Shown: piece after piece, positions 61,560 through 63,476 of the stretch
Numbering within the stretch: the first letter of the stretch is position 1
Layout of the letters: every line of letters begins with the position of its first letter
The notes under the pieces: model-generated
Told to the model about the DNA's origin: nothing
What the model saw: the letters and a program-made list of their open reading frames with translations, nothing else
The model's database searches: none
Assembly: GCF_017352095.1 (NCBI RefSeq)
Contig: NZ_CP071463.1
Location: 620,001 to 684,000 of the forward strand
Direction: 5' to 3'
DNA length: 64,000 bases
From: Natrinema longum
Lineage (GTDB): Archaea; Halobacteriota; Halobacteria; Halobacteriales; Natrialbaceae
Position numbers and translations under genes: made by a program

Positions 61560-61712
61560 TCACTCCCCGTCGATATCACGCCGATCGGTGTGTTCGGCGT
61601 CGTCGAGGACCGCCTCCCGACAGGACGGACACCGACGGCCGTTCACGAACCCGTTGACGCGCCGTCCACACTTCGGACACTGCCAGATCCTCGATCGTAC
61701 CCGTCCCGTCAC
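61560..61712 (-). CDS. Rubredoxin-like zinc mini-protein (50 aa)
   Basis: Starts at GTG 61712 after a GGGAGATA ribosome-binding-like stretch. Two Cys pairs, CPKCGRRV (Cys12, Cys15) and CPSCREAV (Cys28, Cys31), form a zinc ribbon. The frame is open further to 61808, but that part is basic and unlike the rest. It lies 80 bases after the zinc-finger gene on the same strand and may share its DtxR-controlled promoter. Confidence 0.68.
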   Translation of the reverse strand: MTGRVRSRIWQCPKCGRRVNGFVNGRRCPSCREAVLDDAEHTDRRDIDGE

Positions 61713-61792
61713 TATCTCCCTGTGATTTCGACGAGTCGGATATGGGTTTCGCCGCGTCTCGCTACGAGAAAACGACTGAGCGATGCCCGCGG

Positions 61793-61972
61793 TCAGCGAC
61801 CAGGACACTCCTTGAGCAGGTGTTCGCGATAGACCGGGGCGGGCACCCGGTCGCCACAGAGCTCACACTCGCGGTACTCGATTCGATCGCCGTCGGATCG
61901 ATCCTCGCCGTGGTCGGTCACGGTCGTCCGTTCTCGCTCGAGGCCCCTCGGCGTTTCGACGACGACGCCCAT
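61793..61972 (-). CDS. Small C2HC zinc-finger protein (59 aa)
   Basis: Starts at ATG 61972 (MGVVVETPRG). The finger is ECELCGDRVPAPVYREHLLKECPGR with Cys36, Cys39, His51 and Cys56. The DtxR-type inverted repeat at 61991-62006 lies 19-34 bases upstream, over the likely TATA region CCTAAAAC, so its expression is probably metal-regulated. Function unknown. The 50-residue zinc protein follows it. Confidence 0.68.
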   Translation of the reverse strand: MGVVVETPRGLERERTTVTDHGEDRSDGDRIEYRECELCGDRVPAPVYREHLLKECPGR

Positions 61973-61981
61973 CCGCAACTA

Positions 61982-61989
61982 TTTTAATG
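61982..61989 (+). promoter_or_regulatory. TATA-like element facing the DtxR gene
   Basis: TTTTAATG, centred about 26 bases before the ATG of the leader ORF at 62011. It predicts a transcript starting near 62011, with the operator between TATA and start. Confidence 0.45.
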
Positions 61990-61990
61990 T

Positions 61991-62006
61991 TTTAGGCTAC
62001 CCTAAA
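61991..62006. promoter_or_regulatory. DtxR/IdeR-type operator (TTTAGG-N4-CCTAAA)
   Basis: TTTAGGCTACCCTAAA is a perfect 6-bp inverted repeat with a four-base spacer. It matches the inner TTAGG-N4-CCTAA arms of the DtxR-family consensus. It sits between the divergent zinc-finger gene and the DtxR-family gene, over both core promoters. Binding would repress both, or autoregulate the regulator. That it is bound by the neighbouring protein is inference. Confidence 0.65.
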
Positions 62007-62010
62007 TCGT

Positions 62011-62139
62011 ATGCCAGTCGATCCGAGACGGGATCGCAGGTCGACGGGATCGGTCGCCGCGTCGCCCGTCTCCGATATCGACGCGGGTCGTACCCACCAC
62101 CAGCGATTCGTCCGCGATAGCACCACTCGACACGCATGA
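62011..62139 (+). CDS. Possible 42-codon leader ORF of the DtxR gene
   Basis: ATG 62011 to TGA 62137-62139, starting MPVDPRRDRRSTGSVAASP and ending with a stop that overlaps the DtxR start as ATGA. A TATA-like element lies about 26 bases before the ATG. The peptide is Arg/Ser/Asp rich and low complexity, so it may not be a real protein. If translated, it would couple translation of the regulator. Confidence 0.3.
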   Translation: MPVDPRRDRRSTGSVAASPVSDIDAGRTHHQRFVRDSTTRHA

Positions 62140-62522
62140 CCGACGCCTCCCAGTACCTGCTCGTGTGCTATCTCGCCGTTCATGACGTGGGCGAACCGGT
62201 CTCACCGGGATACGTCGCGGACGAACTCGACCGGTCCCCGGCGGTCGTTACGGAAACGCTCCAGCGACTCGAGGACCACGGCTATCTCACCTACGAACCG
62301 TACGACGGGGCGACGCTCACCGCGCACGGACGGGAGAGGGCCGCCGAGCTGTACGAGACGTACGTGGTTCTGTCGACGTTCTTCCGTGATGTCCTCGACC
62401 TCGAGGAGCCCGACGGGGAGGCGATGGCACTCGCGGGGAACGTCAGTGCCCTCGTCACCGAACGGGTCGCGGAAACCCTCCTCGAGACCGAGGACATCGA
62501 CGCCGTGGACGTCTCCGCCTGA
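62136..62522 (+). CDS. DtxR-family metal-dependent regulator (degenerate metal site)
   Basis: A 128-residue regulator. The winged helix is ASQYLLVCYLAVHD, SPGYVADELDRSPAVVTETLQRLEDHGYLTYEPYDGATLT (turns split the helices), as in SirR/IdeR. The dimer/metal helix is EAMALAGNVSALVTERVAETLL; where the family usually has Glu-His (E-H-x-x-S) this has Gly-Asn, so the classical metal site looks incomplete. The C-terminal SH3-like domain is absent. A perfect DtxR box lies 130 bases upstream. It faces the DpsA gene (183 bases between). Confidence 0.82.
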   Translation: MTDASQYLLVCYLAVHDVGEPVSPGYVADELDRSPAVVTETLQRLEDHGYLTYEPYDGATLTAHGRERAAELYETYVVLSTFFRDVLDLEEPDGEAMALAGNVSALVTERVAETLLETEDIDAVDVSA

Positions 62523-62706: not shown

Positions 62707-63252
62707 TTAGTTGGTCGCCGACTCGAGGACGAGCGTATCGTCCTCGAGGTAGTGTTCGATGTGGTGGGTGTGTTCCTCGATGGTCTCGAGTTGCTCGCGG
62801 AGCATCTGGGCGGTCGCGTGATCGCCCAGCCCTTCCGCGAGTTCGATGTGCTCTCGGTAGCTCTCGATGATGTCGCCTAGCATCTCGAGGTCGTTCGCGA
62901 GCGACGTCCGGATGTCGTAGACGTCCTCGTCTTCGGGTTCGACGGTGGCGTTATCGGCCAGCGTCGTCATGCTCGCGTGGGGAACGCCACCGAGGGCCTG
63001 CAGCCGTTCGGCGACCTCGTCGGCTGCTGCCTCGACGTCCTCGTAGACCTCCTGGAGGAACACGTGGACGTCGAGGAACTCCGCGCCTTCGACGTTCCAG
63101 TGGTGTTTGTGGAGCTGGTGGTAGAGGACGTACGCATCCGCGAGGTCCCTGTTCAGCGCCTCGACGATCTGTTCTGCCTTCTCGGGCTCGAGCCTGAGCG
63201 CGTTCTCCTCGACGGTGCCGGCTTCCTGGTGGACGGTCTTCTGCGTGTTCAT
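62707..63252 (-). CDS. dpsA: DNA-protecting ferritin DpsA
   Basis: A 181-residue Dps ferritin. It closely matches Halobacterium DpsA from MNTQKTVHQEAG onwards, which sets the start at 63252 rather than at 63282 or 63294. Ferroxidase residues lie in YHQLHKHHWNVEGAEFLDVHVFLQE and DVEAAADEVAERLQALGGVPHA. It stores iron and protects DNA from oxidants; in Halobacterium its expression depends on iron. The tail HHIEHYLEDDTLVLE is conserved. A TATA-like CTTATATGG lies at about 63281-63289. The neighbouring DtxR-type gene strengthens the iron link. Confidence 0.94.
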   Translation of the reverse strand: MNTQKTVHQEAGTVEENALRLEPEKAEQIVEALNRDLADAYVLYHQLHKHHWNVEGAEFLDVHVFLQEVYEDVEAAADEVAERLQALGGVPHASMTTLADNATVEPEDEDVYDIRTSLANDLEMLGDIIESYREHIELAEGLGDHATAQMLREQLETIEEHTHHIEHYLEDDTLVLESATN

Positions 63253-63280
63253 CACAGTCTCTAGAACGACTTGCTCACCC

Positions 63281-63289
63281 ATATAAGTT
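63281..63289 (-). promoter_or_regulatory. TATA box of dpsA
   Basis: CTTATATGG on the minus strand, 29-37 bases before the ATG at 63252, giving a short leader of a few bases. More AT-rich sequence lies at 63290-63312, with a DtxR-like half-site ACCTAAAA near 63318-63325. Confidence 0.5.
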
Positions 63290-63476
63290 TTCAATTTAGT
63301 TATATTTTTTCGTACGACCTAAAAATCGCTCGCGGCCGTTTCGATGACGGCATCCCTCGTCGATCGGCCGTCTCCAGTGCGGCGTCGAACTCTCGTGGAT
63401 CGATCGTCGGTGATTTGCCCAGTCACAATCGCGACGAATCGAACGGCTATTGGGCGTTCGCTTCCGAGCGGTCGGT

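Follow-up and report, generated by a model that had tools for sequence, protein, structure and literature searches.

The window, by which we mean the whole 64,000-nt stretch of Natrinema longum DNA that was analysed, carries close to its right end a short DtxR-type regulator gene preceded by an iron-box palindrome and a small open reading frame. The features of the locus are as follows.

61793-61921, minus strand: zinc-finger mini-protein with a conserved C-x2-C finger, outside the circuit; its conserved start is the GTG at about 61921, not ATG 61972.
61973-61987, plus strand: TATA-like element TATTTTAA (61980-61987) with a BRE-like CCGCAAC 5' of it, both read from the sequence; centred some 27 nt 5' of the leader ATG.
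61991-62006: iron-box operator TTTAGGCTACCCTAAA, an exact palindrome between the TATA-like element and the leader start.
62011-62139, plus strand: coupling leader ORF of 42 codons (MPVDPRRDRRSTGSVAASPVSDIDAGRTHHQRFVRDSTTRHA, stop TGA at 62137-62139), in 21 of 21 operator-bearing family loci.
62136-62139, plus strand: ATGA, 4 nt in which leader stop and regulator start overlap; NTGA at 82 of 85 orthologue starts.
62136-62522, plus strand: short (128 aa) regulator of DtxR/MntR fold lacking all canonical metal ligands (Pfam PF01325, AF2 and Foldseek).
62707-63282, minus strand: dpsA, ferritin-like DNA-protection protein, convergent to the regulator (NCBIfam NF041388; probable start ATG 63282).
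63308-63323: degenerate iron box of the dpsA promoter (TTTAGGTCGTACGAAA on the minus strand); nearly every dpsA promoter of the relatives has it.

An earlier note had described here a TTTAGG-N4-CCTAAA inverted repeat following a TATA-like element and followed by ATG 62011, a 42-codon frame and the ATGA at 62136-62139; all of these were found as placed, the repeat having zero mismatches. It had also taken the operator to cover the core promoters of two divergent genes, which stands for the right (leader) side and fails on the left. Although the zinc-finger ORF does encode a conserved protein, the sister strain no longer has the ATG located 19 nt from the operator, and the start that is conserved, the GTG, lies about 70 nt away from the operator; in relatives the gene can be as far as about 1240 nt from it. 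A shared divergent operator was dropped, since neither the distance nor the start of the left gene is conserved. A second small zinc-ribbon ORF (61560-61808, minus strand), conserved in Natrinema, adjoins the mini-protein gene.

Palindromes of the TTTAGGCTACCCTAAA type are rare by chance. At up to two mismatches the window holds two of them (0.19 expected), the second being the site before dpsA, and the 14-bp core TTAGGN4CCTAA has 22 exact copies in the 3.59-Mb genome, about 1.2 being expected from base composition. One-mismatch sites are genome-wide no more numerous than those of a reversed-pattern control, so that only the exact sites are informative. Many of these lie 5-14 nt 5' of an ATG, and the genes next to them include Peripla_BP_2 lipoproteins, FecCD permeases, a solute-binding protein and an ABC ATPase of the iron-uptake type. 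The leader has the same core in its core promoter, with ATG 62011 placed 5 nt 3' of it. This is the geometry of the boxes at the iron-uptake genes, which indicates that the leader promoter is part of the iron regulon, with ATG 62011 as the place where a leaderless message should begin. In most orthologues CGCAACTA[CT]TTTA or a near variant is found at the same position, and the geometry of the leader promoter fits a leaderless transcript starting at or beside this ATG. Iron boxes are often in tandem, 34-36 bp apart and flanking the BRE/TATA region (genome positions 2394571/2394605, 2396222/2396256, 1781305/1781341 and 3230157/3230193); tandem boxes also occur 5' of the leader in loci L016, L018 and L021.

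The product of the gene at 62136 has the N-terminal winged helix of the DtxR type (PF01325, Fe_dep_repress, E 1.7e-10, above the cut-off). Its AF2 model (pLDDT 89) finds MntR as best Foldseek match (TM up to 0.84) and aligns over both MntR domains, including the dimerisation fold, which by sequence remains below the cut-off (PF02742, 18.5 vs 27 bits). The metal ligands have gone: MntR D8, E11, H77, E99, E102 and H103 are replaced by Q, L, Y, M, A and G, and they are absent across 30 orthologues with the one exception of a His at the H77 position in L004. The SirR-like paralogue retains them. Despite this loss the regulator is under purifying selection (dN/dS 0.23). To judge from sequence and model, the protein looks like a DtxR-type DNA-binding fold that fails the metal-ligand criterion, and it is unlikely to sense iron itself because the ligands have been lost. 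Autoregulation is conjectural, and is made less simple by the metal-loaded paralogues, which could equally bind the genome-wide iron box. Most of the f1 loci examined have dpsA 3' of the regulator, and the half-degenerate box of dpsA (TTTAGG-N4-CGAAAA) is conserved in the dpsA promoters of relatives, even where the regulator has no box of its own; this dpsA box is a plausible target of the regulator.

GC-rich DNA has few stops, so a lone open frame of 42 codons means little, and the case for the leader comes from its conservation. The earlier note had named loss of the frame in close relatives as the observation that would count against it; the frame is kept in every one of the 21 orthologous loci with operator and leader. 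It opens 18-19 nt from where the operator core begins and ends on the regulator start, by a -4 overlap in 20 loci and by a -8 overlap in L017, whose leader has changed frame and runs in a different one from the other 20. Lengths of 42, 43, 50 and 56 codons occur, differing by multiples of 3 nt. The other two frames of the region have stops in 3/21 and 7/21 loci. When leader evolution was simulated neutrally on the ML tree, the absence of any stop in the leader frame had P = 0.005 across all 21 loci (P = 0.07 within the 13 Natrinema loci alone), and the absence of stops together with retention of the start had P < 1/4000 across the 21. The peptide, on the other hand, drifts: in the 13 Natrinema loci the leader has a dN/dS of 1.04 (pS 0.26, pN 0.27) against 0.23 for the regulator, with all codon positions equally variable. 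A coupling leader ORF is in our view well supported by this comparison, which suggests that the leader has been kept across haloarchaeal genera solely to hand ribosomes to the regulator. The proposal that the regulator is translated only through the leader is likewise favoured, as start, frame and overlap are kept and the peptide is not.

The best surviving alternative, to which we give a small probability, is that the leader is translated into a small protein with a function of its own, made together with the regulator. In other lineages the same position does hold a conserved ORF of about 50 aa with the motif RRxRAWAWLYxxLFG and an ATGA overlap. Against this, the dN/dS of 1.0 in the window's own clade is that of a sequence without constraint on its product, leaders of different genera differ wholly in length and sequence, the leader ORF has no Pfam or NCBIfam match, and the conserved protein was found neither in the window's genome nor elsewhere in Natrinema, where there is also no trace of the leader descending from it. 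This small protein, which has no Pfam match, overlaps or abuts the regulator start in L088, L096, L097, L125, L127, L137, L142, L145 and the g47 loci.

The regulator family is present in 121 of 392 sampled Halobacteriales genomes, and 60 further upstream regions were compared. In many of them the same iron box recurs and the first start after it reaches the regulator through coupled short ORFs. This may be a single ORF of 13-128 codons or two in series; L115 has three in series, of 13, 15 and 48 codons, with overlaps of -4, -8 and -1. L118, L128 and L133 have two overlapping GTGs, the second of which, at the usual spacing, opens leaders of 25-30 codons. Among 24 representatives of six families, 21 have one, two or three coupled ORFs leading to the regulator, where 4.9 are expected when length and order of the ORFs are randomised (P ~7e-14, this and the other P values being indicative as the representatives are not fully independent). 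The exceptions include L135, with a 13-nt gap, and L122, without a clear chain. Within the family, genomes L024-L032 mostly have no box close by, L028 being the one exception with a box at -873, and in some of them less convincing ORFs lie upstream, spaced 0 to +3 nt from the regulator; where no box is near, the regulator usually follows another gene or small ORF with an ATGA. In L024, L028 and the g70 loci (L091, L100) it follows a large gene with an ATGA overlap, which in L028, the locus with the box at -873, encodes a DUF7260 protein.

These data bear on a second alternative, marginally less probable than the first, in which the 125-nt stretch serves as an RNA regulatory element or is simply 5' UTR that is never translated, its open frame being incidental. 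High GC makes open frames cheap, and shuffling the spacers at constant length gave a chance of about 0.5-0.9 for short ones, although such a shuffle does not probe phase and was superseded by the randomisation of length and order. Phase 2 is retained at nearly all single-leader lengths, stops are avoided and the NTGA is conserved, all of which argue for translation. A structured or riboswitch-like leader was rejected, given a mean folding z of +0.56 (no excess folding) and no Rfam family at the gathering score, the sole match below E=1 being to an unrelated miRNA family, under threshold and located outside the leader.

The junction itself points to the same conclusion, codon 2 of the regulator being used in a way that keeps the NTGA. 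The second codon of the regulator, when Ser, is AGY in 20/20 cases (16/272 inside the genes) and, when Arg, AGA in 6/6 (8/383 inside). In a control with 45 ORFs of the window, ATGA was found at 15/45 starts and codon-2 Ser was AGC in 4/6, so the Ser bias is partly a general habit of start codons, and ATGA is frequent at the starts of haloarchaeal genes at large; the Arg and NTGA figures carry more weight. Frameshifting or stop suppression at the overlap, giving an N-extended regulator, is very improbable: M. tuberculosis uPPE2-PPE2 does yield a minor frameshifted fusion at its AUGA overlap (PMC11260477), and in four g33 loci the leaderless ATG is fused in frame with the regulator, but the extension would be unconserved here and L017 uses another frame. 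Just as improbable is a promoter of the regulator's own immediately before 62136 with the leader transcript a minor one, for although H. volcanii genes with both leaderless and long-leader transcripts exist (PMC4983044), TATA-like elements lie 5' of 38/45 leader starts and only 1/45 regulator starts, and the mean AT fraction at -32 to -23 is 0.75 for the former and 0.23 for the latter.

Coupling ORFs as a general habit of the genome were also considered and rejected. In 464 kb with 121 gaps of 25-300 nt, 6 were bridged (4.2 expected), a result that rests on home-made gene calls and means "not general" at this power. Strict overlaps in the same sample were 2 against 1.7 expected, and one of them belongs to a paralogous DtxR. 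This 144-aa paralogue (genome position 2516157) independently has a bridge ORF of 16-74 codons 5' of it in 21/21 genomes, which starts as ATGA on the stop of the upstream gene and ends as NTGA on the regulator. It occurs in 14 different lengths, every one of which keeps the phase (the chance values multiply to 9e-12), and its sequence varies as well (L002:1367-1932; L147-L166). A GGAGG-like motif precedes the start at this locus in nearly all of the 21 genomes. The ORF upstream, judged by eye, resembles a ferritin-like protein. No leader was seen at the third, SirR-like DtxR paralogue. A broader reading, on which we are evenly divided, would be that two of the three haloarchaeal DtxR-type lineages are translated only via sequence-neutral relay ORFs (from a leaderless promoter with up to three chained ORFs in the present gene, by a double-ATGA bridge in the paralogue), forming a dosage device selected on frame alone and absent at ordinary gaps, and that the present clade is at the same time a metal-blind branch of iron regulators.

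For the locus itself, the reading we prefer and regard as likely as a whole is a leaderless bicistronic mRNA with termination-reinitiation at 62136. Comparative sequence analysis shows the operator, the promoter geometry, the conservation of frame and overlap, the neutral peptide and the loss of ligands. The mRNA would start at or next to ATG 62011, with the iron box in the interval between TATA and start. In iron-replete cells a metal-loaded DtxR paralogue would most likely sit on the box and keep the mRNA off. Ribosomes would otherwise load on the 5' AUG, translate a 42-codon ORF whose peptide is indifferent, and stop at the UGA overlapping AUG 62136, where some would re-initiate; these steps, from leaderless start to reinitiation, are deduced from the sequence and from what is known in a related genus. 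Neither a promoter nor a Shine-Dalgarno sequence can be recognised for the regulator alone, and its synthesis would therefore depend on initiation at the leader and probably be lower. The product, an intact winged helix without metal ligands, would then be a probably metal-blind member of the iron network acting on boxes, its own or that of dpsA.

Termination-reinitiation is known from Haloferax volcanii, which belongs to the same archaeal class. Overlapping pairs there are strictly coupled, premature stops in the upstream gene abolishing translation of the overlapping downstream one (Huber 2019, PMC6728339). The commonest overlaps are -4, -1 and -8 (62 pairs at -8; Huber 2023, PMC10666635), and the leader/regulator pair has one of these; spacing of about 20 nt abolishes coupling (PMC10666635). 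The present case shares with those pairs the -4/-8 overlaps and the absence of SD-driven de novo initiation; it differs in that the upstream partners in H. volcanii are proper genes, whereas here the upstream partner is a peptide-neutral ORF that begins where a regulated promoter would place a leaderless start. PMC4983044 gives 72% of H. volcanii transcripts as leaderless and reports small ORFs (15-31 aa) in 16/97 very long 5' UTRs; these resemble the leader in being small ORFs within long haloarchaeal leaders but are considered there as uORFs or candidate small-protein genes. A 2025 review (PMC12548453) names, as a proposed mechanism, short ORFs whose only role is to supply ribosomes, and leader ORFs have been tested experimentally in bacteria at M. 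tuberculosis ppe2 (PMC11260477) and E. coli iraD (PMC5574718). In both, the stop of a short ORF overlaps the downstream start and the ORF is needed for, or sets, its translation. These bacterial systems are SD-led and involve a riboswitch or CsrA, in contrast to the leaderless-type initiation and DNA operator here. The haloarchaeal DtxR regulators Idr, SirR and TroR (cited in PMC11349517) share the fold and the iron network with the present clade, which differs in having no metal ligands. In the openly accessible literature we found no archaeal regulator described as coupled via such a relay ORF. What is already known is haloarchaeal termination-reinitiation, and what would be new is a variant with a relay leader before a regulator.

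Annotators should be cautious, as relay ORFs will look like spurious genes. The locus also points to a widespread metal-blind DtxR clade, extending over the 121 Halobacteriales genomes above, tied to iron boxes and dpsA. If the relay-leader explanation is true, this would be a clear archaeal case in which an ORF is conserved because translating it matters and its product does not, and the coupling of a leaderless promoter to a downstream regulator would provide a simple system in which to study leaderless initiation and reinitiation.
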